In this document: one piece after another, positions 37,936 through 51,214 of the stretch
How positions within the stretch are numbered: position 1 is the first letter of the stretch
Layout: every line of letters starts with the position of its first letter
DNA from: Puniceicoccaceae bacterium
GTDB lineage: Bacteria > Verrucomicrobiota > Verrucomicrobiia > Opitutales > Coraliomargaritaceae
Assembly (NCBI GenBank): GCA_018402305.1
Contig: JAGYJE010000008.1
Coordinates: 1 to 64,000 of the forward strand
Direction of reading: 5' to 3'
Length of the DNA: 64,000 nucleotides
Made by a program: the position numbers and the translations under genes
The notes under the pieces: model-generated
The model's database searches: none
What the model saw: only the letters and a program-made list of their open reading frames with translations
Told to the model about the DNA's origin: nothing

Positions 37936-38948
37936 TAGTGTTTTTCTCCTTCAAGTCGTTTGATCTCATGGTCGAAATCGGATAGATAGTCGCGGTCCTG
38001 CCGTTGCCGAAACACCTCATATTCCTGTTCGGCTTTCAATTTGGCCTCCAGCGCACTGATGCGCCCCTTGTCCTTGAGCAGGGGGTAGCGCGACAGTTCC
38101 AGAAACTGATCCAGAAATGCCGCCCACTCCGCCATGCGCATCAGGATACCGCGCCGGGCGTTATTCTCCGCCAGATCCAGGTAGGCGGAGACGATTCGGT
38201 TCAGCTCCTGGATGTGTGCCTGATTCAAGTAGTTTTTGGCCACCGCCACATCGGACTTCAGCACCTTGCCGTCAGGAGCCTGCTTCCATGTGGTCAACCC
38301 CATGTGCGGGAGTTGGGCATCCGCAGAATCGTAGATCATCTCAGCCGCTGTTTTCCCGGTGATCGCCCAGTGCAGCTTATTTTGCACAGAGGCAAAGAAC
38401 TCGCGGGTGATCGGCGCGTTCTTGTCGTAATCGGCCGCCAGCGCATACAGATCGGTGATCTTTTGGTAGAAGCGGCGCTCGCTCGCCCGGATTTCCCGGA
38501 TGCGCTCCAGCAGCTCCTCGAAATAATCTTTGCCAAAGGCCTCATTGCCCTGTTTCAGGCGTTCATCATCCAGCACGAAGCCCTTGGTGATAAATTCCTT
38601 CAAGGTCTTCGTTGCCCAGATCCGGAACTGCGTCGCCTCATAGCTGTTCACCCGGTAGCCCACGGCGATGATGGCATCCAGATTATAGTGCTTGGTCGTG
38701 TATTTTTTCCCGTCGGCGGCAGTATGTGCAAATTTTGCACATACTGATGCCTCGGCCAGCTCGCCTTCCTTAAAAATGTTGCCCAAATGCTTCGTCACCA
38801 CGGATCGCTCCGCCCCGAACAGTGCCGCGATGCCCTTCTGCGGCATCCAAAAGGTCTCGTCGCGAAAGACGCACTCCACCCGCACCTCGCCCCCCGCAGT
38901 CGCATATAGGAGGATCTCGCCGCCCGGTTTTCCGGCTCCTTCACTCAT
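37935..38948 (-). CDS. RhuM-family protein within the type III R-M operon
   Basis: A 337-residue protein of the RhuM family (virulence/pathogenicity island protein). The N-terminus ILLYATAGGEVRVECVFRD, the ETFWMPQKGIAALFG block and the HYNLDAIIAVGYRVNSYEATQFR block are diagnostic. A C-terminal helical region with coiled-coil character follows. Its molecular role is unknown; RhuM genes often sit inside restriction or toxin-antitoxin loci. Here it overlaps mod by four bases (ATGA) and res by one base, so it is coexpressed with both. Confidence 0.88.
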   Translation of the reverse strand: MSEGAGKPGGEILLYATAGGEVRVECVFRDETFWMPQKGIAALFGAERSVVTKHLGNIFKEGELAEASVCAKFAHTAADGKKYTTKHYNLDAIIAVGYRVNSYEATQFRIWATKTLKEFITKGFVLDDERLKQGNEAFGKDYFEELLERIREIRASERRFYQKITDLYALAADYDKNAPITREFFASVQNKLHWAITGKTAAEMIYDSADAQLPHMGLTTWKQAPDGKVLKSDVAVAKNYLNQAHIQELNRIVSAYLDLAENNARRGILMRMAEWAAFLDQFLELSRYPLLKDKGRISALEAKLKAEQEYEVFRQRQDRDYLSDFDHEIKRLEGEKH

Positions 38949-41158
38949 ACCGACACCTCCACAATGTTCATGGTGTCGTTCCCGAAGATGTCCACCACCT
39001 TCACCGCGATCTTGCGCCGCCCCGGAGTCACCTCATGGGCCACGCTGGTCAACTCCAGCGAGCGGTCTTTCTTCGTGCGGAAGCTCTGCCATTCATTCTC
39101 AAAGATGTAGTCACCCGTCCAGCGCTCTTCCCACTCATCGAGATCCGGCTGTGTGCCTTCCAGGCCTTTGATCACGCCTTGATCTTCCCATTGCTTGGGC
39201 ACCCGCACGATCTCACGCTTATTCTCGTAGTCGAAGTCCACGCTCCAGTAGTCGATCCAGTCCGTCCAGTGTTGGGTAAGCTGCTCGCGCTGCATCACCC
39301 CCTTCTTGTCCTTGACCAGCTTTACGATCTGGCCTTTCTCCACCACGATCTTGCTGCCCGCCTTCGCCGTCTTACCCAGTGCCTCCTCCGCCTGGGCGAT
39401 GCTGTCCTGCGAGTAAAAGACCGAGAAATCCGTCAGCTCCACCGCCACCGTGCTCGGCTGGCCTTTCTTGCCCTTGGCGACGTGGGGCTTGACCTCGATG
39501 TAGCTCACATCGTGGAACACCACCTGGTTTTTCTCCACCGCCCGCTTGTCAAAGACTTCCGCCGGGATGTATTTCGGGGCGATGTCGATCCCCTTAGCCC
39601 GCGCCTCGTCGAGCACGTTGGGGAAGAGCCCCATCTCAAACTCAAAGCCAAGGATGTCCACCTTGGTCAGCTGCTTCTTGCGGCATTCCAGGATGATCTC
39701 CTCCACGAAGAGGCGCGTCACGGGCAGGTTGACCGGCCCGATCGCTACCAGCCGTCCGGAGCGCTTGCCGTGGAAGTGCTCGAATTGCGAAACCTTTTCC
39801 GCCCGGTAGGCCCGCAGGATCAATTCCAAAAAGGCCGCCTCCTTCGCCGCTAGCTGTTTTGCCTGCTCCTCCTCGCGCAGGTTCGGATTGACCCCCACGA
39901 AATGCTGCCGCTCGTATTTGCCGAGGTTGAGGATTTCAAAGGCGCGGTAGTCCTGCCCATCAGCCTTGAGCTGCCGCTGCACCCCGATCATCCGCTTGCG
40001 CGTGGTGTGGATGGCAAACTTGCCGAGGTCCGTGCAAATCCACTTGCGCCCCAGCTTCTCCGCCACCGCGGCTGTGGTGCCGGAGCCGCAGAAGAAGTCG
40101 GCCACGAGATCGCCTTCGTTGCTGGAGGCTTTGATGATGCGTTCGAGCAGGGCTTCGGGTTTTTGGGTGGGATAGCCTACTGATGCCTTCGCTGAATTGT
40201 TGAGCTTATCAAGATTCCATACAGAATCTACAACTTTTCCACGCGCTAATGAATCTTCTAAGTATATCTTTGTTTTTCGATTCCCTCCATCGCGTGTATC
40301 TAAGGTATACTCACGACCATCGTCTTCTGTGTATACTCTCTGCTTCCTCGTCTTGAGATACTCTTCTCTTGAGCTATAAGACTCAAAATAAGAATTAAAG
40401 GTCGGGGATTCATTTTTAGAAAAGAAATAAATTGTATCATTTCTCTTTTCAAAAGATGAAGAAAGCTGCTTATTCCACCCGCTGTAATGCCAACATATTT
40501 CATTTTGAAGCAGTTTTGTTCCGAAAACCTCATCCAAAACTAAACGAATGTGTGAATTCACCCGCCAATCACAATGCACATAAATGCTCCCGTCCTCGGC
40601 TAACAAATCACGCATGAGGATCAGCCGTTCATAGATCATGGCGATGAAGGAGTCCGCGCCCTTGCCCCAGGTGTCGCGGTAGGCGATTTCTTCGAGGATG
40701 TTGGGCTTCTTGGTGAAGGTGTCGCTGCCGATCTCGATATCCATGGAAAAGTCGGCCCCCACGTCGAAGGGCGGGTCGATGTAGATCAGCTTCAGCCCGC
40801 CCTGCGCCTCAATTTCTTCCCGCAACGGCCCGTTCTTGAGTGAGGACAGGATCAGTTTGTTGTCGCCCCAGATCAGCTTGTTCGTCCAGCCCTTGAGCTG
40901 CCGTCCCCGTTCATCGGTCGAGAACAAGTCCATTTGCGCCGAGGTATCATCCGGCTTCTCTGCCCGAGGCTCATCAACCTGCTCGATGGTTTGAAACGGC
41001 AGCACCAGATTACAAACTTCGTTGGTCTTCCCATTCCAGACCAGCTCCACCTCCCGCTTGTCTTCGAACAGCAAAAACCGATACTTCTCCGGCAACTCCC
41101 TGCCCGCCTCAATGAAGCGCACAATCTCCTGTTTTTCCTGATCCGATAATTTCAGCAT
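38945..41158 (-). CDS. Type III DNA methyltransferase (Mod), beta class
   Basis: A 737-residue methyltransferase and site-recognition subunit. The catalytic DPPF motif (LIYIDPPFDVGA) comes before the S-adenosylmethionine-binding FCGSGTTAAVAEKLG motif, the order found in beta-class N6-adenine or N4-cytosine enzymes such as type III Mod. A central target-recognition region lies between them. It methylates the site that the Res subunit also recognises. The start at 41158 follows the XRE gene by 28 bases. An upstream in-frame ATG at 41287 lies inside that gene and is less likely. Confidence 0.92.
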   Translation of the reverse strand: MLKLSDQEKQEIVRFIEAGRELPEKYRFLLFEDKREVELVWNGKTNEVCNLVLPFQTIEQVDEPRAEKPDDTSAQMDLFSTDERGRQLKGWTNKLIWGDNKLILSSLKNGPLREEIEAQGGLKLIYIDPPFDVGADFSMDIEIGSDTFTKKPNILEEIAYRDTWGKGADSFIAMIYERLILMRDLLAEDGSIYVHCDWRVNSHIRLVLDEVFGTKLLQNEICWHYSGWNKQLSSSFEKRNDTIYFFSKNESPTFNSYFESYSSREEYLKTRKQRVYTEDDGREYTLDTRDGGNRKTKIYLEDSLARGKVVDSVWNLDKLNNSAKASVGYPTQKPEALLERIIKASSNEGDLVADFFCGSGTTAAVAEKLGRKWICTDLGKFAIHTTRKRMIGVQRQLKADGQDYRAFEILNLGKYERQHFVGVNPNLREEEQAKQLAAKEAAFLELILRAYRAEKVSQFEHFHGKRSGRLVAIGPVNLPVTRLFVEEIILECRKKQLTKVDILGFEFEMGLFPNVLDEARAKGIDIAPKYIPAEVFDKRAVEKNQVVFHDVSYIEVKPHVAKGKKGQPSTVAVELTDFSVFYSQDSIAQAEEALGKTAKAGSKIVVEKGQIVKLVKDKKGVMQREQLTQHWTDWIDYWSVDFDYENKREIVRVPKQWEDQGVIKGLEGTQPDLDEWEERWTGDYIFENEWQSFRTKKDRSLELTSVAHEVTPGRRKIAVKVVDIFGNDTMNIVEVSV

Positions 41159-41186
41159 ATTCGTTCCCTTGTAAAATCCGTTCGTA

Positions 41187-41828
41187 TCAACGCAAGCACC
41201 CAAAAGCCTTCCGCAAAAGCTCCACCGCTTCCCCCGGCGTAGCCGAAACAAAATCACTCCCCGCCGGAACCGTATCCGAAACGTCAAAGGGCGTCACCGT
41301 AATGACCGAGTCGCAACCCAGTGCCTCTCGGAGCACTTTCGCGGTCAGCACCGCACGCTCAAAATCCCGCTGCACATTAAACCGGCACTCCAGCGCAATC
41401 CGCTGACCGCCGCGCTCGATCAAAAAATCTGTCGAAACCGCCCCTTTGCAATAATCCTGGTCATAGGCGATCCCCGCCTTGTCCAACTCCCGCGCCACCG
41501 ACCGCTTGAAGAGAATCGACTGCGTCTTCACTTCCAGGAAGCGCTTCACGCGCTCTTCCTCGGCTTGGGCATTGCGCTCGTCGTTGACGGCTTGTTCTTC
41601 CGGCAGGGTGTCGAGTCCGGAGTAGGCCCGGAGCAAGGCCTGCTCCTCGCTGCGGTCCTGGCAAAGCGCTTTTATGATGCGGGAAAGCGTCACCTGCCGG
41701 GGCCGGCTCTGGCCGTTGAGGATGCGGCTCACCGAAGTGGGCGAAATCCCAACGTCTTCCGCCAGTTTCAGCCCGGAGACCTTCTTCGACTCCATGAGGG
41801 CACGTAAAGAATCACCGAAAGAGCTCAT
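41187..41828 (-). CDS. XRE-type controller protein fused to a nuclease-like domain
   Basis: A 213-residue protein. Residues 5-60 form a lambda/434-type HTH (SGLKLAEDVGISPTSVSRIL). A linker is followed by a C-terminal domain with STDFLIERGGQRIALECRF near residue 130-148, resembling a PD-(D/E)XK fold (Asp then Glu-x-Arg) but with Arg in place of the usual Lys. It lies just upstream of mod. I infer it controls timing of restriction gene expression; the tail may bind or cut DNA, and this is untested. Confidence 0.72.
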   Translation of the reverse strand: MSSFGDSLRALMESKKVSGLKLAEDVGISPTSVSRILNGQSRPRQVTLSRIIKALCQDRSEEQALLRAYSGLDTLPEEQAVNDERNAQAEEERVKRFLEVKTQSILFKRSVARELDKAGIAYDQDYCKGAVSTDFLIERGGQRIALECRFNVQRDFERAVLTAKVLREALGCDSVITVTPFDVSDTVPAGSDFVSATPGEAVELLRKAFGCLR

Positions 41829-41943
41829 TTGTGAATAAAAAGTGATTGTATAAGCATTGACATGAATTTAAGGGAAACTTTGATTTTTGGACATAAACGT
41901 CAATCAAAATGTAAATCAATGGCCAAAATCAAACACCTTAAGT

Positions 41944-42150
41944 TCAAAGCAGGTAGATTTCTGGATGTTTTTGCAGAGCATCCCCACCTTTTTCGCGGTC
42001 TTTGAAAGCATGGGCGGAATCGATTTCCCATGGTCGATATTTTGACGTGTGCAGAACGTCATCTCGATTGTGTTTTCCTAAGCGGATTTTAAGATTATCC
42101 GTTAAACCGACGTAGCGCCGTCCAGGGTGACTTAAGCTTTTTGGAACGAT
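41944..42150 (-). pseudogene. Degenerate GIY-YIG nuclease-like fragment
   Basis: The frame reads GRRYVGLTDNLKIRLGKHNR, then HTSKYRPWEIDSAHAF and DREK, the core of a small GIY-YIG domain protein. The N-terminal start and hydrophobic strand are missing, and the C-terminus ends out of the normal pattern. It lies immediately after, and in the same direction as, an intact relative. It is a broken third member of the local GIY-YIG group. Confidence 0.7.
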
Positions 42151-42437
42151 TTCAAATTCAAGTCTCTCGCGATTTGCTGAGAGATTTTAGGGTTTCAAAG
42201 TCACCGCGGAGTAGTGCCATCTTTTTTGCCCGCGACCATTTTTTGAGCTGCCGCTCTCGCTTCACAGCCGCGTCGGGTGCTTTGGGGCCTTCAACGTAAA
42301 CTAAGACAAATTCCTTCAACTGCTTCGCTTGCCTTGAGCCACTCCCATCGGCATGGCGCCTGACGCGTTTGGCCACATCATGGGATTGCCCGACGTAAAG
42401 CATGCCGTTGCACATTAAAAACATGTAAATCCATACG

Positions 42438-42599
<162 letters not shown>

Positions 42600-42951
42600 A
42601 GAGTTTCCTTAAGTCCTTGTAATCAATGGAATAACGATTTATCGAAAAAAAGTTAAGGCATAATTAAGGCACTGGAGTCGCATCGGGTGGATTCTGGTTG
42701 TGTGGCGTTCTCGGAAATTCGGGCGATTGTGGCGTGTCGAGTGCGTACATTTTAACCGGGACATTTTATCAAAAAAATCCCCGGCCATGTCGTTCGGCGT
42801 TTCGCCTACTTGCCATGGCCGGGGGCGGGTTCTTTGCCCGGAGGGATGGAGACCTCCGCGCGGGAGTGCCGGGTGCCTTCCCGAAGCGGCGCGGCGGTCG
42901 GGGCGGTGCACCTCGACCGTTCTGGCCGATCAGGCTGGAGGGCCTGTCCGA
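42600..42951. other. Junction region without a gene, left of the DGR template repeat
   Basis: I see no credible gene here. A short AT-rich stretch (42600-42675) contains two copies of TTAAGGCA 11 bp apart at 42653-42671. Minus-strand frames here are either continuation of the template-repeat frame or a 50-codon frame beginning MAGDFFDKM with no recognisable family. In a complete DGR a reverse transcriptase gene might be expected on this side, but none is present. Confidence 0.5.
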
Positions 42952-43077
42952 AGGCTGGAGACGCGAAATCCGATGTTGTTGTTCTCGTTGGTCGGATTGT
43001 TGTTGTTGCGGTTCGAGGACTGCAGGTTGTTGTCGTTGTTGTTGAACGAGCCGCCCCGCCGCCCGCGGTTACTGGTG
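42952..43077 (-). repeat. Diversity-generating retroelement template repeat (TR)
   Basis: A 126-bp stretch dominated on the minus strand by AAC codons. In translation it reads GGSFNNNDNNLQSS, then NRNNNNPTNENNNIGFRVSS, the form typical of DGR templates. It aligns to the variable repeat at 43596-43727. The 24 bp at its minus-strand 3' end (42952-42975) and the GC-rich part near 43044-43077 are conserved. 21 of 23 differences in the hand alignment fall at adenines of the sense strand; the variable repeat also carries a 6-bp insertion. Confidence 0.9.
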
Positions 43078-43315
43078 TCCCGGCACCCGAAAGCTCGATG
43101 TCGCGAAAGATGTTCCGCCGCAGGCGGTAGCTCTGCGCGTGGCTGGCATGGGCGATCCAGCTGCGGGTGCGCTGCATCAGGTCCGGCAACGCCATGCGCC
43201 CGGTGCCGAAGATGAAGCGTTGGTTCTTGGGAAAACTGTCCACCCGCTCCAGCAACCATTTGGTGTGATCATACCAGCGCACCAGCAGCACCGGTGCCTC
43301 CGGTTTTCGGGCCAT
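43076..43315 (-). pseudogene. Avd-reverse transcriptase fusion remnant (DGR)
   Basis: The first 47 residues (MARKPEAPVLLVRWYDHTKW, RWYDHTKWLLERVDSFPK, NQRFIFG) match the four-helix accessory protein Avd of DGRs. The sequence then switches in frame to RTRSWIAHASHAQSYRLRR, which resembles the C-terminal end of DGR-type reverse transcriptases. The rest of Avd and all RT catalytic motifs, including YxDD, are absent. The frame then runs on into the template repeat. I read this as a deletion joining the two genes. The RT assignment of the tail rests on recall of the family pattern. Confidence 0.72.
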
Positions 43316-43339
43316 GCTCGGGTTTCAAAAAAATTTCGA

Positions 43340-43458
43340 CCGCCTACGGCGGAAAGAGTGCGGGGGCCTCGCGGCCCCCGCAGAAAAGAAAAAAGGAAAG
43401 CGGCGCTACCGCGCCGCGATAAAGCGCAGCCCGCCATAGCTCGAAGAGCGACGGCGGG
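43340..43458. repeat. Cluster of four hairpins between DGR target gene and Avd/RT remnant
   Basis: Four perfect or near-perfect palindromes: CCGCC-TAC-GGCGG (43340-43352), GCGGGGGCC-TCGC-GGCCCCCGC (43360-43381), GCGGCGC-TACC-GCGCCGC (43400-43417), and the REP-like CCCGCCATAGC...GCGACGGCGGG (43430-43458). The second is a strong stem that may terminate or pause transcription. The last belongs to a family repeated at 44818-44844 and 44894-44923. Confidence 0.7.
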
Positions 43459-43504
43459 GGTAAAAGGGCTAAAGGCTAAAGGGTGCGCCTTCGACCAGCT
43501 CAGG

Positions 43505-44530
43505 CTAAACGCGCCTTTTGCGACGCATCAGTGCCAGCGCAAGTCCAAGGCAACCTAAGATCGCAGCGTAAGCCGACGGCTCAGGAATGGGCGCGAGGCT
43601 GGAGACGCGAAATCCGATGCCGTCGCCCTCGAAGGTCGGACTGCCGACATTGCGGAGCGAGGACTGCAGGGGGATGTTGAAGCCGAAGTCGTTGAACGAG
43701 CCGCCCCGCAGCCCGCGGCTACTGGTGAACAAATATTCATCATTCCACTCCCACACATTGCCCGCCTGATCGAAGGTGCCGTAGGCGCTGCCGGCTATTG
43801 TGTAGGCCCCGACCGGCGTGACGGTATTCGAAGCCGGCGAGAGAGACCCACTCCGATTCACGCTATTGGCATCCGTGCTGTTGGGCACGGTGGCCGTCGG
43901 TGCGGTGTCGCTACCGGTCGCGTAGAGCGCGTAGGTCGAGGTGCCCGGATTGTAGTAGGCCGCCTTGAACCACTCGTTTTCGCTGGCAATCGCCACCCCA
44001 CCGTTCGCATACTCCGTCGCGTCGCGAGTGATCGTGTTGTTGTCGATGCCAAGTGGGGTTAAAACATAGACCCCCGTCTCGGTATTCCCCGTCGTCAGCC
44101 AGTTCGTAAAACGCGCCGCATCCCAGAACGAAACATAGTTCACCGGCATGTTCCCCATGCTCTGGCCGTTGTTAAAACCCGAGCTGGCCGTTCGTACGCT
44201 GTAGGTGTAGCTGCCGTCGCTGCCGCTTCGGCTGATCCCGCCGTGAACATTGCTACCCATATTGATGTTCCAGAGCCCGCGTGGATCGCTTGCCGCCACT
44301 GCATTCAGGAAGGCCGTGTACTGCGCGTTCGTTACCGCATACGTGCCGATGTGGTAGCCGTAGGACACCGCTCCAAAGCCGTCGCCCCCGGACTGGCTGT
44401 GGTTTCGGTTAGCAGACGATTGCGCGGCGTTACCGGGATTGCCAACAAATACGGTGTCGATGGTGATCGCCGCCGAAGCTGCAGAAGCCGCCAGCAGGCC
44501 AGCCGCGAGGAGGGACATGTGTTTTTTCAT
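43505..44530 (-). CDS. Exported formylglycine-enzyme-fold protein with DGR variable repeat and PEP-CTERM tail
   Basis: A 341-residue protein with a signal peptide (SLLAAGLLAASAASA). An FGE/SUMF1-like C-type-lectin fold spans about residues 25-315 (YHIGTYAVTNAQYTAFLNA, ASENEWFKAAYYNPG, AGNVWEWNDEY). The fold's end, RGGSFN to GIGFRVSS, is the variable repeat. The C-terminus IPEPSAYAAILGCLGLALAL plus MRRKRR is a PEP-CTERM sorting tail. It should be exported, processed by exosortase and exposed outside. It is the diversified target of the retroelement. Lectin-fold use by DGR targets is established; the ligand is unknown. Confidence 0.9.
   Translation of the reverse strand: MKKHMSLLAAGLLAASAASAAITIDTVFVGNPGNAAQSSANRNHSQSGGDGFGAVSYGYHIGTYAVTNAQYTAFLNAVAASDPRGLWNINMGSNVHGGISRSGSDGSYTYSVRTASSGFNNGQSMGNMPVNYVSFWDAARFTNWLTTGNTETGVYVLTPLGIDNNTITRDATEYANGGVAIASENEWFKAAYYNPGTSTYALYATGSDTAPTATVPNSTDANSVNRSGSLSPASNTVTPVGAYTIAGSAYGTFDQAGNVWEWNDEYLFTSSRGLRGGSFNDFGFNIPLQSSLRNVGSPTFEGDGIGFRVSSLAPIPEPSAYAAILGCLGLALALMRRKRRV
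43596..43727 (-). repeat. Diversity-generating retroelement variable repeat (VR)
   Basis: The 132-bp end of the target gene, encoding about residues 268-312. It aligns with the template repeat at 42952-43077. Adenine positions of the template sense strand are replaced by other bases, while the rest is conserved apart from two substitutions and a 6-bp insertion. The invariant block at 43596-43619 is where an initiation-of-homing site would be. A small inverted repeat (AGCCGACGGCT) lies at 43571-43581 downstream in the gene direction. Confidence 0.9.
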
Positions 44531-45202
44531 GGTGATGTGTTTTTGATGGTTATGGCTTTATGCCTTGAGTTTTGTCGATGCCGAGGGAGGGGGGGGCAAG
44601 CGTAAAAAACACGGGGATTGTTACAATTTCGTTACGCGGCGAGACGCCTCCGGGATGCCATCGGCTGCCCCTGGAAAAGGCTGATGGATTAAGCGGCCTT
44701 CCCTTCCTCCGGCACCGGGCTAAAGTGCCCTTTCTCATAAAGCCAGTAGCCTGCGCCAAGAATAGCGAAGACTCCCAGGGCGATGGCGAAATATCCCCCG
44801 TAGGACGGCGCGCCTGTCCTCCATAGCCCGGAGGGCGACGGGGGAAGGTGGGCCCAGGTGCCGAGAGCGACAGCCAGAGCAAGCAGACCCGTGTCCGCCA
44901 TAGCCTGGTAAGGCGACGGCGGAAGATTCCCCACCGGTTGGGCAGGAAGCCCGTTCCGATGATGAGCACGCCGACAATGGCGCATCCAATCGCGGCCCGC
45001 CTTCGCTCTGCGAGTTTCTCTAATATTGCTAGGATGTCGCAGTAGTTCTATCCTTTCCAAACCGGAGAGCGGAAGATATTGCTACGGCGTGGCAAGCAAG
45101 ATGGTAAATGCGAAAGGCACCGAACATTTCGGAAACTCGGGCGACGGTATTCTCAAAGGTTTCTCTGCATACCTTGAAATCTTGCGAATCGGCGCTTGAC
45201 CT
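44531..45202. other. REP-like palindromes and degraded coding sequence between DGR target and HigBA pair
   Basis: No convincing intact gene. Minus-strand frames give short hydrophobic pieces (YFAIALGVFAILGAGYWLY at 44700-44780; IVGVLIIGTGFLPNRWGIF further up) in different frames, as if one small membrane protein were broken up. Two palindromes of the CCATAGC...GGCGAC type, at 44818-44844 and 44894-44923, interrupt them. They match the hairpin at 43430-43458. Confidence 0.5.
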
Positions 45203-45238
45203 TGTTCGCATATATGCTAACTTTAGAACATGCGAACA
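45203..45238 (+). promoter_or_regulatory. Inverted-repeat operator over the start of the HigB-like gene
   Basis: TGTTCGCAT at 45203-45211 and its exact reverse complement ATGCGAACA at 45230-45238, separated by 18 bp. The right arm includes the toxin start codon. A -35-like TTGACC lies at 45196-45201. This geometry fits autorepression by the HTH antitoxin encoded downstream. The palindrome is seen; its use is inferred. Confidence 0.6.
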
Positions 45239-45595
45239 ATTCAGTTCTACAGGCAGCAATCAGGCTCATGCCCCGTTGAGGAGTTTCTTGACTCCCTTGA
45301 TGGCAAACAGGCCCAAAAAGTTGCCTGGGTGCTCGATCTTGTTCGCACTCTACCAAGGCCACCAACCCAGTATTTCAAGAAGTTAGTGGGCACGGAGCTT
45401 TGGGAGATTCGGGCCGAGTTTGGAGGCAACGCTTTCCGACTCCTCGGCTTCATGGACGGCGAAAATCTTGTCATTCTGGCCAGCGGTTTCGCCAAGAAAA
45501 CGCAGAAAACCCCGAAACAGGAAATCGAAACGGCTGAACGTCGCCGAAAAGACTATTTCTCTAAAAAAAGGATGAATCATGGACGATCTCGATAA
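45230..45595 (+). CDS. RelE/HigB-type toxin (phage-derived Gp49-like)
   Basis: A 121-residue basic protein with IQFYRQQSGSCPVEEFLDSL, then GTELWEIRAEFGGNAFRLLG and ILASGFAKKTQKTPKQEIE. These match the phage Gp49-like/HigB toxin family, ribosome-dependent mRNA interferases. The FxKKxxxTPxxEIxxAxxR tail is diagnostic. The antitoxin gene overlaps its 3' end by 17 bases. The toxin comes first, the usual order for HigBA. Confidence 0.88.
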   Translation: MRTIQFYRQQSGSCPVEEFLDSLDGKQAQKVAWVLDLVRTLPRPPTQYFKKLVGTELWEIRAEFGGNAFRLLGFMDGENLVILASGFAKKTQKTPKQEIETAERRRKDYFSKKRMNHGRSR

Positions 45596-45911
45596 ATATA
45601 TACAGAAGCGCAAGGCTCGCGACCCTCTCTTTGCCGAAGGCTACGATTCCGGCTATCAGGAATTTCTCATAGGGGTTCTCCTCAAGGAAGCCCGCGAAAG
45701 TGCTGGTGTCACTCAAGAGGAGCTGGCGACCGCCATTCACACGAAGAAGTCGGTCATTTCCCGGTTGGAGAATCAGGCCAGCGATGCGCGTGTCTCGACG
45801 CTACGCAAAGTTGCTCAGGCTCTGGGAAAAGAACTTGTGATCGAACTGCGGCAACCGGGATCCAAGTCAAAACGCCGGAAAGCGACTCGAAAGCGGATGG
45901 CTCCCGCCTGA
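45579..45911 (+). CDS. HigA-type XRE-family antitoxin
   Basis: A 110-residue protein. An N-terminal partner-binding segment (DLDKYIQKRKARDPLFAEGY) is followed by an HTH (SAGVTQEELATAIHTKKSVISRLEN) and a basic tail (KRRKATRKR). It should neutralise the toxin encoded just upstream and repress their shared promoter, where a palindrome overlaps the toxin start. The genes overlap, so they are cotranslated. Confidence 0.88.
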   Translation: MDDLDKYIQKRKARDPLFAEGYDSGYQEFLIGVLLKEARESAGVTQEELATAIHTKKSVISRLENQASDARVSTLRKVAQALGKELVIELRQPGSKSKRRKATRKRMAPA

Positions 45912-46001
45912 TCCGGACTTGAGCCGGAGTTCCTGATGATCGGTCACTCGCATCGATTTTATTTCATGCCGGACAGGTGGAGGGAAATAAAGACACCCCA
46001 A

Positions 46002-46020
46002 TTAAGGCACAGTTAAGGCA
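46002..46020. repeat. Pair of TTAAGGCA repeats, right-hand side
   Basis: TTAAGGCA at 46002-46009 and 46013-46020, 11 bp apart, which puts them on one face of the helix. The same word occurs as a pair at 42653-42660 and 42664-42671, with the same spacing, near the left GIY-YIG cassette. They could be integrase or nuclease arm sites. Confidence 0.5.
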
Positions 46021-46420
46021 AAAACCTTAATTCTGATTGAATTGAGTGAACTTCAGTTGCCTGAGGGGGGCTGGATTTGCTGAGGCCTCGCAGCTTCTCA
46101 GTGTCTCCCATTATTAATGCTGATTTCTTGGCGTGCGACCATTTCTTGATCTGACGTTCACGCTTGATGGCTAGTTCTTTGGTCATTGGGCCTTCAACAT
46201 AGACGAGTCGGAAGTCTTTCAACTGAAGAGTATGGCGGGCTCCAGCACCTTCTGAATGGCGCTTGAGCCGCAATTGAACGTCCACACTTTGCCCCGTGTA
46301 ATAAGTCCCATTGCGACAAAAGAGGATATAAACCCACGCAAGCCCTTCGACACCTTCGACATGCTCAGCGCGGGCAGGCTCAGGGCATTCGACGCGCTGT
46401 AATCCATCTGGAAGTTTCAT
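46013..46420 (-). CDS. Small GIY-YIG domain protein with repeat-encoded leader
   Basis: The core WVYILFCRNGTYYTGQSVDVQLRLKRH carries the GIY-YIG strand pair, with the catalytic-region helix IKRERQIKKWSHAK. I give the start that parallels the 42158-42517 relative. The frame is open upstream through two in-frame 46-residue repeat copies as far as the tRNA-Ser gene, so the true start is uncertain. The core itself begins at about 46342. It probably has the same endonuclease-like activity as its relative. Confidence 0.7.
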   Translation of the reverse strand: MKLPDGLQRVECPEPARAEHVEGVEGLAWVYILFCRNGTYYTGQSVDVQLRLKRHSEGAGARHTLQLKDFRLVYVEGPMTKELAIKRERQIKKWSHAKKSALIMGDTEKLRGLSKSSPPQATEVHSIQSELRFLP

Positions 46421-46478
46421 AATCGAATTGTGGTTCCGACCCCGAATGGCCTGCCATGAGCAAGCGGAGCGCGTCGAA
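46341..46478. repeat. 138-bp repeat, copy 2
   Basis: First of two tandem copies between the GIY-YIG core and tRNA-Ser. 138 is divisible by three, so the repeat reads through as an open 46-residue block in the gene direction. It matches the copy at 42438-42575. Confidence 0.92.
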
Positions 46479-46706
<228 letters not shown>

Positions 46707-46762
46707 ATCATGAGCTCCGGAGACAAGGAGCGGCGCTGCCTTGGGTCAATCTATAATTTACC

Positions 46763-46792
46763 AAAAAAAACGCGCTCCATTTCTGGAGCGCG
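46763..46792 (-). terminator. Rho-independent terminator of the cold-shock gene
   Basis: On the minus strand, an 8-bp GC-rich stem (CGCGCTCC / GGAGCGCG) with a six-base loop is followed directly by eight T residues. It lies 27 bp beyond the cold-shock stop and before the tRNA-Ser gene. Confidence 0.9.
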
Positions 46793-46819
46793 CGTGAAAA
46801 GGATGGAACCGGGGAGTGC

Positions 46820-47023
46820 TTAGCTAGCAGAAACCTGGGTTGCGCAGGGACCCTTGGGGCCGCTGCCTACTTCAAAGGAAACGTTTTGTCCGTCTTCAAG
46901 GGTGGCGTAACCGTCCATTTGAATTTCGGAGTGATGAACGAATAGATCCTTGCCGCCGTCTTCTGGGGTGATGAAACCATAGCCTTTTTCGGCGTCGAAC
47001 CATTTTACTGTACCTGTACTCAT
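46820..47023 (-). CDS. Cold-shock domain protein (CspA family)
   Basis: A 67-residue single-domain nucleic-acid-binding protein. The RNP1 motif ([12 protein letters not shown]) and RNP2 motif (DLFVHHSEI) are both present, with the normal length for the family. It acts as an RNA chaperone or cold-inducible regulator in the cytosol. A strong terminator lies downstream and a roughly 110-bp leader upstream. Confidence 0.95.
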
Positions 47024-47136
47024 ATTACTTGTCTGTCTGTATTTAATTGCACGGCTCGCCGTTTGCGATCCGTTGCAAGCGCAAATGGTTATATGAGTAA
47101 TTATGCTTTGTCGCTAACTAATTTGCAGAAAATGCC

Positions 47137-47676
47137 TTATTTCGGTGCATTGTAGCGAAGAATCGCGGGGACACCGTCAATTTGCGGGCTGATGGGCTCG
47201 CTGCCGGGCCGGGCTTGGAAGCGCTCGGCGGTGGGGAACTCACTGAGCAGGCGGCGGGCGTCTTCGCTGTGCTGGCTGCGGGTTTTTTTGAAGCTGAGGA
47301 AGCCCTCGACGAGGGGAATGGGCGCGATGGCTTTGGGCAGTTTCTGGTCGAGCACCGTAAGGAACCGAAGGGCGCCTGCATAGGTGGATACGCCGGGGCC
47401 GTAATACCAGCCGCGCCCTTTTTCGAAGTCGCCGCGGATGTCGGGGTTTCCGGAGGGGCTGTGGTAGGTGGAGAGAACTGCCTCGAGGATGAGAGTGTGC
47501 GGTCCGTTCTCGATTAAAAGCGCGGCTGCGGCCTCGATGGCGGCGCCAAAATGGAGGGAGCGCAGGGCGGGGTCGCCGCTACAGGTGAAGCCGCAGGAGG
47601 GCAACTTTGCGCTGTAACCGAGATCGATGGCGAGAATGGGTAGGCCCGGCTGGAGGGTCGCGGTGTAGCGCTTCAT
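47137..47676 (-). CDS. Unknown protein, possibly RNase H-fold (DUF429-like)
   Basis: A 179-residue protein. ILAIDLGYSAKLPSCGF near the N-terminus and HTLILEAVLSTYHSP (Glu) and IPLVEGFLSFKK further on are arranged like acidic strands of RNase H-like domains such as DUF429. This is a weak resemblance. No signal peptide. Its start overlaps the preceding small gene by four bases, so it is the third gene of a translationally coupled set with an ADP-ribosylglycohydrolase. Confidence 0.6.
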   Translation of the reverse strand: MKRYTATLQPGLPILAIDLGYSAKLPSCGFTCSGDPALRSLHFGAAIEAAAALLIENGPHTLILEAVLSTYHSPSGNPDIRGDFEKGRGWYYGPGVSTYAGALRFLTVLDQKLPKAIAPIPLVEGFLSFKKTRSQHSEDARRLLSEFPTAERFQARPGSEPISPQIDGVPAILRYNAPK

Positions 47677-47912
47677 GGGAGGGGCGGGCTTTCTCTAAGC
47701 TGCTTTCGCTCGCTGCGGAAGCGCTTCCGGTGTTTGGTGACGCGGCCACTGACGCGGGCCCGCCAGTTGTTGAAGCTTTTCCGCTTCAGCTCGGCGCGCA
47801 TGATTTTGATGACCTCGGCTTCGGACAGGCCGGTCTTTTCCTCGATCGTCTCAAAGCTGGTGCGATCACACCAGGCCATACGGATGATGTTGTCGGTTTG
47901 TTCTGGGCTCAT
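47673..47912 (-). CDS. DUF2805 / TIGR03643-family small protein
   Basis: A 79-residue protein with RMAWCDRTSFETIEEKTGLSEAEVIKIMRAELK and SFNNWRARVSGRVTKH. This matches the small family of uncharacterised HTH-like proteins known as DUF2805. Such proteins are widespread in marine bacteria and often sit next to photolyase-type genes, which agrees with the truncated photolyase-like gene nearby. It overlaps both neighbours as ATGA. Confidence 0.85.
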   Translation of the reverse strand: MSPEQTDNIIRMAWCDRTSFETIEEKTGLSEAEVIKIMRAELKRKSFNNWRARVSGRVTKHRKRFRSERKQLRESPPLP

Positions 47913-48910
47913 GATGGAGCACCCTCTACTTTGAGTTTGGAGTGTGCACTGAGACCGTTTAGCCAGGTCTGGGGAACTCCGTTGGCCGCACCGAGGATGG
48001 CGCCGACGACGGCGCCTCGGTGGCAGTTATCGCCGCCGCAGTGTGCGTTGGCGAGGACCCCGGCGCTGAAATCGTCGGCATAGCGCCAGGCTAGATAGAG
48101 ACTGGCTTGGAAAGACTCGGGGAGGTAGCAGGCGGGGCTCAGGTGACGCCCGACGACGGTGCGATCGGGGAAGGAGGCCCAAGTTGTGAAGGGCTTCGTC
48201 ATACGATCCAAGGTTTGCGTCGATTCAAGAATGGCGCACAGCTCGCGACCAGCCGCGAGACTGTGAAGGATCTCGGTAAGCGTAGCAGCGGCTTGGCTGA
48301 CGTGGCGGTTTCTATGGGTGAGCCGGACGTGGGCTTCGACGTATTCGCGCTGGGCATCGAGCTCGCTGACGCCGATCCGGGAAAGGGCGGCGAGGAGGGC
48401 GGGGACTTGGCTAAGCCCTCCGATATGGATATCGTCGATGCCGCAGTCGGTCGGCTTCAGGCCGCGGGCGTAGTTATCAAAAAACGCGCGGTGATACTCC
48501 TCGACGTAGGTGTCGCGGTGCCAGCCATCGGTGAGCATCCGGTCCACGTAGCAGTCGGCCCAGGCAGCCGTGTCGTAGGCCCCCTGCTGGAGAACGAAGT
48601 GGTAGAGTTCTGCGGCGAGTTTGAAATTGATCGTGTTCTCGCCAGCAGCGAGGAACTGATGGTAGTGCACGCCGCGCTGGCCCCAGTAGTTTGCCTGCTC
48701 GCGGAGGATGTCGCCACGCTCATTCCGGGCCGTGTAGCGGGAGCGCCAGAGTATGCTGTCCGGGTGCGGGTTTTTGGGAGCGGCATAGCCTTGGAGTCTC
48801 CCATAGTCGCGGTCGAGGGCGGCGGTGTCGTAATACCAGTGCACGGGCATGGCCACGGCATCGGCCACGAGGGCGCCGAGCAGGGCGTTTTGATAGCTGT
48901 CAGTTGGCAT
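47909..48910 (-). CDS. ADP-ribosylglycohydrolase family protein
   Basis: A 333-residue protein from the ATG at 48910, the start that overlaps the stop of the upstream gene (ATGCCAACTGA). It has the family's metal-binding pattern: GALVADAVAMPVHWYYD at the N-terminus, CGIDDIHIGGLSQV in the middle and ANAHCGGDNCHRGAVVGAILG near the C-terminus. It is likely to remove ADP-ribose from protein, nucleic acid or small-molecule targets. The substrate cannot be told from sequence. Confidence 0.88.
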   Translation of the reverse strand: MPTDSYQNALLGALVADAVAMPVHWYYDTAALDRDYGRLQGYAAPKNPHPDSILWRSRYTARNERGDILREQANYWGQRGVHYHQFLAAGENTINFKLAAELYHFVLQQGAYDTAAWADCYVDRMLTDGWHRDTYVEEYHRAFFDNYARGLKPTDCGIDDIHIGGLSQVPALLAALSRIGVSELDAQREYVEAHVRLTHRNRHVSQAAATLTEILHSLAAGRELCAILESTQTLDRMTKPFTTWASFPDRTVVGRHLSPACYLPESFQASLYLAWRYADDFSAGVLANAHCGGDNCHRGAVVGAILGAANGVPQTWLNGLSAHSKLKVEGAPS

Positions 48911-49310
48911 GGGAGTTGGTTTCGCCCCGGATAGCTCCAAGGTAGGAGGCGTCCTGTCCGTGGGCGGCTTGGTCGGCACCCAGTTCCTTCAGGTAGTTCG
49001 ACCAGACGGACGGACGGCCCTCGAGCCAGGCCTTCCAGTAGGTGCGCCAGCAAACCTCGTCGATGTATTTGGAGGCCGCGCCGTAGCGGTGCCGCGCCAG
49101 GACCCTCTCGCAGATGAACCACTCCGGCAGCAGGCGGAGCCGGACCCAGGGTGAGAGCATGGAAACGTTTTTGCGGCGCCCCGGCCCCTCGTCATGGTTT
49201 CGGGTGGTCGCGTAATCGCGTCCCGCTCTGGGTAGAAAGGCCTCCAGAGCGTCGATCGCGGATGATGAGTTAGTAGCGAACACACCGAATGAACGGTGGA
49301 ACGTCCGCAA
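48900..49310 (-). CDS. Truncated photolyase/cryptochrome FAD-domain protein
   Basis: A 136-residue protein. GRDYATTRNHDEGPGRRKNVSMLSPWVRLRLL and WRTYWKAWLEGRPSVW match the first part of the FAD-binding domain of photolyase/cryptochrome-like proteins (residues about 30-115 here). The family's C-terminal half, which completes the flavin site, is missing. The reading ends in unrelated sequence at the ADP-ribosylglycohydrolase start. Probably a deletion derivative with no repair activity. Confidence 0.65.
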   Translation of the reverse strand: MRTFHRSFGVFATNSSSAIDALEAFLPRAGRDYATTRNHDEGPGRRKNVSMLSPWVRLRLLPEWFICERVLARHRYGAASKYIDEVCWRTYWKAWLEGRPSVWSNYLKELGADQAAHGQDASYLGAIRGETNSHAN

Positions 49311-49350
49311 ACTTAGTCGATTTCCTGAAAAGGCGACTAATCAAACGCTA

Positions 49351-49542
49351 CTAGCGAAACTGCACTTGCTGCGGTTGGTAGACGTAGCCGACAGACTCCA
49401 ACCGTGTGCAGAGGGTATCGGCGTCGATATCGTGGGTGCGACAGAGGTCTTCGAGGGATTCAGCCTCGTTGCGCAGCTCCGTGTTGACCAGCCCGACCAG
49501 GAGGTGGGGGTCCATTTGCTCGAACCGGCTCCAATCCGTCAT
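49351..49542 (-). CDS. DUF4250 domain protein
   Basis: A 63-residue protein when begun at 49542, just 10 bp after the stop of the gene upstream. The MDPHLLVGLVNTELRNEAESLEDLC block and YVYQPQQVQF match the small DUF4250 family. Its role is unknown. A longer frame that starts within the upstream gene is a shadow. Confidence 0.8.
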   Translation of the reverse strand: MTDWSRFEQMDPHLLVGLVNTELRNEAESLEDLCRTHDIDADTLCTRLESVGYVYQPQQVQFR

Positions 49543-49552
49543 AGCGGAGGGC

Positions 49553-51214
49553 TTATTCGGCCATGCCAGCTTCGGGGAGGCCGCGGACGACGAGCTCGTT
49601 GAGATAGGCATTGCTGCTGGAAAAGGCGGAAAACCGAGCGAGGAAGGCCTCTGCCTGCGCGAGGTCGGCATCATCTTCCGGGATTTCGGGCACGACCTTA
49701 TCGATCAAATTCACGAAAATACCGGATTGCCCAGCGGTGATCATGGGCGAGATTTCACCTGCCTGCATGCGCTGGGCGCGTTGCAGTGCGCTGCGGTTCA
49801 GTTCCGGTGGTGCTTCGCGGAGCGTGAAAGGCTCAAAAGGCTGCACAGAGAGCCCAAGCGACTCTGCGACCTCGGCGAAGGACGCTCCCTCAGCGACCTT
49901 GCTTTCGATCTCAGCTTGGAGGCTTTCGCCTTTCTCATTAAAGAGGCGGCGCTTTTCCTCGGCCAGGTAGTTGGCGCGGACTTCACTCTCGACAGCGGCA
50001 AACTCGGGGATCTCGGGTGCGATACGACCCTCGTAGATAAGCACGCCGAATCCACCGTCCACCTCGAAGGCATCCGTATAGTAACGGTTACCCCCAAGTG
50101 CGAAGGCAGCTTCAAGCAACTTCGCCGGAAGTGCGCGCTGGCGTGCGCCCTCCAGGGTGTAGGGCTCGATCTTCGTGAGGCTCACACCGGTTTGGTTGAG
50201 CAGGGTGTTGAAGGCGGCGGAGTCGCGCTTAATTTCATCGCGGTAGAGTTTGAAGGCGAAGTTTTGAGCCGCCTCGTTTGCCTGCCGGCGGGCGCGTTCG
50301 GCACGGTAGCTCTCAACAACAGCATCGCGGACATCCTCGAAGGTGACGCTTGGTGTTTCCGCTTCCTCCTCATTCGCTTCATTGGACTCAGCCTTGGCCG
50401 CCTCGAAATCGGCTACAAAGCTGGCACGGTTGGCGATAAAGTGTTCGCGTAGTTCCGAATCGCCGAATTCGGTGGTTTGGTTAGCGTAATCCGCCTCTTC
50501 AAAGCGAACATAGCTGGCCCGGATACGCTCAGGGATCTCGTAGCTCAATTGGTTGGCCTCGTAGTAGGCTTGCAAGGCTTCCTCGCTTGCATCGAATTCC
50601 GGTGAAAAGTCGGCATAGCTGAGCTGGGCGGTCTCCAGTGCGTATTCCGTGCGGTTGCTTTGAGCCTGAGCCAGCACCTCCGAGGGCAAAAGGTAGCCCG
50701 GCCCGGAAAAGGCGGTGCCGATTTGCTCGATCCGGTAGTTCTCCATGAGCACTTCCAGCACGAGGCCCTGCGGCGTGCGGGGGTTGGACTCGATCTGATC
50801 CACAAATCGTGTGTATTCATCAACGCTGAATTGACCATCCGGACCGCGGAAGGCGTTTTTTGTTTGGATGTATTCAGCCAGAGTCGGCTGGTCCGGGGCA
50901 GGAACGCCGATCTCATCGGCCAGATGGAGACGGGCGATACGCCCGCTCAGCATGGACTGGAACTCCTGGTCGCTGCGGATCTGCTGCCCGTCGAGGAAGG
51001 CGCTGAGCTGCACTTTCTCGATGACGGCCTCGCGCTCGCGGGGCGAATTCAGGTCGATCCCGTAGAAAAGGTTGGGCTCGTAGCCGCTACGATCGGTCGT
51101 GCAGCCGGGTGTGTTCCCGATCGTAAAGACGAAGGCGACGATGATAAGGGCCAGCAGAGATAGAAATATCCAGCGGCCGTGGCGGATGAGGTGATGTTGA
51201 ATCCAGGAAATCAT
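49553..51214 (-). CDS. Membrane-anchored SurA/PpiD-like folding factor
   Basis: A 553-residue protein with one N-terminal membrane helix (WIFLSLLALIIVAFVFTIG) that leaves the rest outside. A SurA_N-like helical segment (residues 65-160, AEYIQTKNAFRGPDGQFSVDEY) is followed by a helical linker. No clear parvulin active-site motif is seen. The layout resembles PpiD/SurA chaperones of outer membrane proteins. It precedes the DUF4250 gene by 10 bp. Confidence 0.75.
   Translation of the reverse strand: MISWIQHHLIRHGRWIFLSLLALIIVAFVFTIGNTPGCTTDRSGYEPNLFYGIDLNSPREREAVIEKVQLSAFLDGQQIRSDQEFQSMLSGRIARLHLADEIGVPAPDQPTLAEYIQTKNAFRGPDGQFSVDEYTRFVDQIESNPRTPQGLVLEVLMENYRIEQIGTAFSGPGYLLPSEVLAQAQSNRTEYALETAQLSYADFSPEFDASEEALQAYYEANQLSYEIPERIRASYVRFEEADYANQTTEFGDSELREHFIANRASFVADFEAAKAESNEANEEEAETPSVTFEDVRDAVVESYRAERARRQANEAAQNFAFKLYRDEIKRDSAAFNTLLNQTGVSLTKIEPYTLEGARQRALPAKLLEAAFALGGNRYYTDAFEVDGGFGVLIYEGRIAPEIPEFAAVESEVRANYLAEEKRRLFNEKGESLQAEIESKVAEGASFAEVAESLGLSVQPFEPFTLREAPPELNRSALQRAQRMQAGEISPMITAGQSGIFVNLIDKVVPEIPEDDADLAQAEAFLARFSAFSSSNAYLNELVVRGLPEAGMAE

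Follow-up and report, generated by a model that had tools for sequence, protein, structure and literature searches.

A diversity-generating retroelement cassette lacking its own reverse transcriptase, with targets bearing PEP-CTERM-type tails, in a Puniceicoccaceae genome

A stretch of 64,000 nucleotides from a Puniceicoccaceae bacterium, hereafter the window, contains a short repeat and a diverged copy of it within the gene for a putative surface protein. This pair was described in an earlier note, made from the letters of the DNA, as a diversity-generating retroelement (DGR), in which a reverse transcriptase (RT) rewrites a variable repeat (VR) from a template repeat (TR). The locus raises the question of which enzyme, if any, could rewrite the VR, and where the altered protein would act. 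We consider it likely that the window holds a non-autonomous DGR derivative, most probably reliant on an RT and an Avd protein encoded on another contig (C76), and that its target belongs to a family of putatively surface-sorted binding proteins.

Coordinates of features in the window and of related remnants in other genomes
Feature	Position	Strand	Basis or remark
Hairpin followed by seven T, likely intrinsic terminator	42771..42824	minus	stem pairs covary, four loci
Stem-loop in spacer after TR	42895..42919	minus	two-sided pair changes, four loci
TR, 126 bp, 39 sense-strand adenines	42952..43077	minus	repeat search
Fusion ORF, 169 aa	42806..43315	minus	avd start joined to RT end, continues through TR
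RT remnant, C-terminal end	43078..43206	minus	protein match and DNA alignment to C76
Deletion junction	43203..43206	minus	4-bp GCAC at both parent ends of C76 copy (by eye)
avd remnant, about first 37 codons	43203..43315	minus	protein match and DNA alignment to C76
Target gene, 341 aa	43505..44530	minus	signal-like N-terminus (by eye), FGE-sulfatase domain, VR, PEP-CTERM-type tail
PEP-CTERM-type sorting tail	43511..43591	minus	PEP, hydrophobic stretch, Arg-rich end
VR, 132 bp	43596..43727	minus	repeat search; stop about 30 codons beyond VR end
Extra 6 bp of VR relative to TR	43676..43681	minus	one of nine neighbouring placements
Two GIY-YIG genes flanking the region	42158-42517 and 46013-46684		
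Gp49/DUF891-type protein (PF05973, RelE/HigB-like) and HTH antitoxin-like gene, overlapping	45230-45595 and 45579-45911		
RT-start remnants before RsmE-like gene	L062 4608-4772, L063 5195-5419, L061 4866-5078		three genomes

An adenine-biased repeat pair and an avd/RT deletion scar

A repeat search recovered both repeats where the earlier note had placed them, and the computational alignment that it had called for confirms that the adenine-directed pair is real and the DGR signature genuine. With the 6-bp gap set at VR positions 47-52, the window VR differs from the window TR at 22 of the 39 template adenines and at 2 of the 87 other sites (Fisher p=4.9e-12). Moving the gap two bases earlier gives 23 differences, 2 of them at non-adenines, which reproduces the count of 21 adenine substitutions in 23 made previously by hand. 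The conserved blocks reported at both ends of the repeats are likewise seen in the alignment. As regards an initiation-of-mutagenic-homing site, which sets a VR apart from its TR, the 3′ ends diverge after CCAGCCT.

The same bias is found in other VRs when each is scored against the C76 TR or its own TR. Differences fall at 20 of 39 adenines and 0 of 87 other sites in the VR of C76, at 22/39 and 1/87 in that of C6, at 26/39 and 4/87 in that of C2, and at 16/39 and 0/87 in that of a relative, G005. VR diversity was assessed by comparing paralogues and this relative; pairwise, the four VRs of the source genome and the G005 VR differ at 19-26 of the 39 adenine sites and at 0-6 of the 87 others, with a doubtful VR on C10 (see below) left out of all adenine-bias tests.

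The greater length of the VR had been listed among the unusual parts of the system. There are nine neighbouring positions possible for the extra 6 bp, each giving 2 non-adenine differences and 23-25 differences in all, and they fall at the template sequence AAC GAC AAC AAC; the added codons are NNC, the form given by a mutated AAC. That AAC repeats slip by multiples of three has already been posited for DGRs, in a passage of PMC12875486. The length difference is compatible with such slippage and, because it falls on an AAC-derived run for which a mechanism of this kind had been proposed, it need not be regarded as strange.

An open frame between the repeats carries the remains of the enzymatic genes. 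This ORF aligns over residues 1-50 with C76 avd (82%) and over residues 30-85 with the C-terminal part of the C76 RT (80%). In DNA alignment the window and C76 cassettes are collinear, with ∼1.18 kb, reaching from inside avd to near the RT end, absent from the window. Judged by these alignments, the ORF is, in this assembly, a scar left by an in-frame deletion between avd and RT. No stop interrupts the fused frame, which crosses the TR in a frame other than that of the VR, and the C76 RT frame likewise continues through its TR. Against NF033474 (cut-off 80) the avd remnant scores only 16.1 bits. The target proteins of the window and C76 are ∼70% identical upstream of the VR, and the tract from VR to terminator is much closer.

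No RT was found among the ORFs listed for positions 38000-50000, nor did a genome search find a full RT on the contig. Because the window cassette lacks both an RT and a complete avd, and the full-length RT lies on another contig, it is not a self-sufficient DGR. The original reading stands for the adenine-biased TR/VR pair, the FGE-domain target and the PEP-CTERM-type tail; what it missed is that, in place of the RT and Avd of a complete element, the window holds the scar ORF.

One reverse transcriptase, two templates and several tailed targets

The proposed hunt for further VRs, carried out with the TR across the whole source genome, returned two TRs and five VRs, four of the VRs secure and the one on C10 doubtful. 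The sole RVT_1 match in the genome is on C76 (77.7 bits, an open frame of 446 codons with no stops) and is the only full-length RT of its clade found there; its best NCBIfam match, to a group II intron model, reaches 134 bits, far under the cut-off of 300. Adjoining this RT is the single full Avd found (bAvd 64.7 bits, NF033474 112 bits, both over their cut-offs). The C76 TR, at 110678-110803, differs from the window TR at 2 of 126 sites. Taken as a whole, the genome contains the parts of a DGR, with an RT that groups with DGR RTs, an Avd and a TR. Counting against the explanation favored here, the 20 kb around the C76 cassette have a lower GC content than the window, 48.7% versus 56.4%, in an assembly of 76 contigs with a listed contamination of 0.1%.

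All VRs sit in paralogous genes. Those on C75, C76, C6 and C2 have uninterrupted frames with a PEP-CTERM-type tail at the end, and the C10 target copy has stops and frameshifts. Because C10 shows five single-base indels but not one substitution relative to C76 in the 3′ block, we call its VR doubtful rather than counting a fifth secure one. Between mid-gene and the beginning of avd, only single-base indels distinguish the C10 copy (L045 6642-7729) from C76, and upstream of mid-gene it is clearly more divergent; it is either a recent block copy or an assembly error. Two additional FGE paralogues, at C2:25938 and C45:3276, gave no match to the TR query in the genome-wide search.

The window target is of FGE type, as proposed earlier, with an FGE-sulfatase domain (PF03781) at 75.6 bits. 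The 24 solved relatives of its profile include FGE and the DGR variable protein TvpA of Treponema denticola (PDB 2y3c, E=6.2e-8), and a C-lectin/FGE-type fold is predicted from these matches; the structure prediction of the target itself has a pLDDT of 34.1. TvpA is a lipoprotein and is not known to be an exosortase substrate.

The PEP-CTERM-type tail on the diversified protein was also recovered, although as a borderline motif by profile score. It reaches 23.0 bits in the genome search (PF07589 cut-off 20.7), yet 18.1 bits, under that cut-off, in the whole-protein scan, and 14.3 bits against TIGR02595 (cut-off 16). The corresponding motifs of the C76 and C6 targets score 17.9 bits and that of C2 19.5, all under the PF07589 cut-off. 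A genome search shows that the source genome (G000) encodes two exosortases; 22 of the 39 PEP-CTERM matches listed for it are over the cut-off. Among 14 control genomes, an exosortase match was found in one, and PEP-CTERM matches over the cut-off in none, with weak matches at a loose limit in 13. The targets are probably exported; the signal-like N-terminus of the window target was recognized by eye only.

Function or decay of the window cassette

In this assembly, deletion of the ∼1.18 kb segment has fused the avd start to the RT end, and the TR, spacer and terminator hairpin are retained. In the mechanism that we favor, the C76 RT-Avd would, most likely, make adenine-mutated cDNA from the C76 TR, with the window TR possibly serving as a template as well, and this cDNA would rewrite VRs both in cis and in trans. 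With the VR located just before the PEP-CTERM-type tail, exosortase processing would leave the diversified face exposed on the cell or within the matrix, and the targets may together form a family of changeable binding proteins for putative ligands. If this is right, the window and C76 offer a natural separation of function, and because template and target without enzyme stand beside a complete sister cassette, trans-templating is directly testable.

We give less credence to, but take seriously, the possibility that the window cassette is a nonfunctional relic. In this view, diversification of its VR in cis preceded the loss of RT and avd, and its likeness to C76 reflects only a recent copying event. 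Beyond the deletion of RT and avd itself, decay is a live alternative because remnant RTs occur frequently in this family. Among 43 family genomes, 10 have an RT match at E<=1e-10, but long matches of this clade were found only in the source genome and G005, the others being short relics or RTs of ∼27-35% identity. TR or VR sequence occurs in five of the 43 (G000, G005, G062, G031 and G024). Partial RT sequences, not accompanied by a full RT at their locus, are seen in G031 (an RT end with TR and spacer), G062 (a partial RT with TR), G008 (where a contig end holds the RT start and a portion of avd) and, as RT starts of ∼36 residues, in G057, G061 and again G062. The repeats themselves also offer points in favor of a relic, in that the window TR has its two changes whereas the TRs of G005 and C76 do not differ at all over 126 bp, and the window VR and its own TR share a T at site 112.

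Other observations speak against decay. The target gene and its reading frame are intact, and TR changes between the window and C76 are rarer than those in the flanks (2/126 versus 20/298 in the RT end and spacer; p=0.03). The RNA hairpins downstream of the TR also still pair. Across the window, C76, G005 and the RT-less G031, 97.7% of cells in the spacer stem and terminator hairpin are paired, and 4 of 22 pairs are changed on both sides, a value reached by 11 of 500 shuffles, with every slid control at 0 or 1; this covariation rests on four loci, the same from which the structure was drawn. Finally, site 18 falls within the diversified tract, and there the window VR has the base of the C76 TR rather than that of its own TR.

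As markers of template use the two sites disagree, with site 18 ambiguous and site 112 pointing the opposite way. The G of the window TR at site 18 is common to the C6 VR and to an orphan target in G024, which belongs to another genus. This G suggested the window TR as the source of the C6 VR, a proposal weakened by the presence of the same base in the G024 gene.

A far less probable explanation is that the deletion is an assembly error and that the DGR of the window is truly intact. Collapse is conceivable in a 76-contig assembly with a near-copy present, and the doubtful C10 copy, with its five single-base indels in the 3′ block, does resemble an assembly or read error. However, substitutions particular to the window relative to C76 are found on either side of the junction, and the fused reading frame is maintained without interruption. 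That the repeats are an ordinary duplication of an FGE gene end, diverged by selection without any retroelement, would accord with the duplicated target family and with a C76/C10 block that looks copied without mutagenesis, but this is rejected by the clustering of changes at template adenines in all five VRs tested (window, C76, C6, C2 and G005) and by the occurrence of RT, Avd and TR in the same genome.

Further scans concern putative transcription of the TR and the RNA structures around it. The terminator hairpin was missed by a simple terminator scan, its loop probably being longer than the scan allows. Another terminator-like hairpin lies at 43400-43417, between target and scar, one of 3 such sites where 3.0 are expected by chance. 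No promoter-like site was found by a promoter scan (0.9 expected), and Rfam gave no match at gathering score in 42000-45500. The fold energy of the spacer alone is not significant for the window (z -1.04, 30 of 200 shuffles as good) or for C76 (z -1.78, 11 of 200).

Some features of the relatives merit separate mention. The RT starts listed in the table are conserved at ∼80% and lie just before an RsmE-like gene (identified by eye), without the remaining RT at the same place. The RT-less TR of G031 (L064 348-658) is missing several adenine codons, which gives the appearance of decay or overwriting. The orphan target of G024, a genome listed as 99% complete with no RT match at E<=1e-10, is a VR-like PEP-CTERM FGE gene (L248 788-1717). 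The G005 locus, which by its match is L067 of Verrucomicrobia bacterium GSL.Bin9, has an RT match that begins at residue 30 and no match found to avd; a GIY-YIG-like gene (by eye) at L012 1923-2186 occupies the expected place of avd and the RT start.

A lineage of reverse transcriptases with tailed targets

Relatives were sought with four aligned RTs, and the clade may be larger than described here because the analysis took the best 80 genomic and the best 80 viral loci of a larger number. Among these, 61 genomic and 71 viral loci have an adenine-biased TR/VR pair with an ORF; the 19 genomic and 9 viral loci without such a pair were dropped from the tail survey. At most 9 codons separate the VR from the ORF end in all 73 viral cases and in 72 of the 83 genomic ones (72 of 78 when loci L067-L071 are set aside). 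Nine genomic VRs are followed by 10-60 codons and two by more, and in these two longest cases (L144 and L145) what was counted as the VR seems to be the TR.

Included in the nine are L067-L071, the five nearest RTs found, one from Verrucomicrobiota and four from Planctomycetota. The C76 RT groups with them at 100/100 in a tree of 38 hand-chosen rows (this RT, 34 of the 80 genomic and 3 of the 80 viral loci), of which the L069 row was flagged as unlike the rest in letter make-up. Like the window, these five loci combine an FGE target, 16-34 residues after the VR and an exosortase in the host (5/5); unlike the source genome, each has one VR found per locus. Their tails read PEP-CTERM, that of L071 as PGPG, by eye only. 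In PF07589 scans of three of these targets, that of L070 scores 24.9 bits, over the cut-off, and those of L068 and L071 gave no match. By eye the tails of the other four of the nine, L102, L110, L137 and L143, do not resemble PEP-CTERM, and some appear incomplete or out of frame.

In a draw of 288 Verrucomicrobiota genomes, among which G005 is not listed, 16 match the clade profile at E<=1e-60. Because the source genome scores 660 bits and the next 327, it is the only one in the draw taken to hold the clade.

The new part of these findings is that a PEP-CTERM-like target tail past the VR marks one RT lineage. The tail is indeed unusual, as the earlier note had it, but it is not a one-off, being common to this clade. 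Our search of the open-access PubMed Central literature found no paper that joins DGRs with PEP-CTERM or exosortase. If the favored reading is right, it links DGR hypermutation to exosortase sorting, two processes unlinked in the literature searched, and provides a natural case of a diversified domain before a surface-sorting tail in one RT clade of two phyla. More speculatively, and with a stronger claim that we hold to be unlikely as it stands, there may be a distinct Planctomycetota-Verrucomicrobiota DGR lineage coupled to exosortase, represented here by one RT, two templates, dispersed targets and an RT-less cassette that would donate its template in trans. Were this true, the outer face of sorted surface proteins would be subject to retroelement-driven rewriting.

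The DGR of Bordetella phage BPP-1 has TR, VR, Avd, RT and a structured spacer after the TR, complete in cis. The same parts, including the structured spacer, are found here; the C76 RT is 32.2% identical to that of BPP-1, and the BPP-1 target differs. On plasmid pREC1 of Acaryochloris, whose RT is 43.6% identical to the C76 RT, there are FGE-type targets and more than one VR per RT, but in its three targets the VR lies 1 codon from the ORF end with no tail, unlike the window target. The BPP-1 system is described in the introduction of PMC12875486.

FGE-sulfatase targets and more than one VR per RT are also features of DGRs in the portion of the DiGReF survey that concerns them (PMC3521204). 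RT-less DGR loci served in trans are not new, as they are described for Thiohalocapsa PB-PSB1 in passages of PMC10907252. The losses reported in those passages are linked to transposons and MITEs, whereas the window shows an in-frame deletion; several of the Thiohalocapsa targets are predicted there to be cytoplasmic and one is likely secreted, whereas the targets here have a PEP-CTERM-type tail. The metagenome approach of PMC8144416, as outlined in part of that paper, would not detect remote targets.

The surroundings of the window cassette contain repeats and small genes of their own. A 190-bp sequence occurs three times (42386-42575, 46289-46478 and 46427-46616) and overlaps the coding ends of the flanking GIY-YIG genes. 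The Gp49/DUF891-type gene and its HTH antitoxin-like partner lie upstream of the target gene and point away from it.
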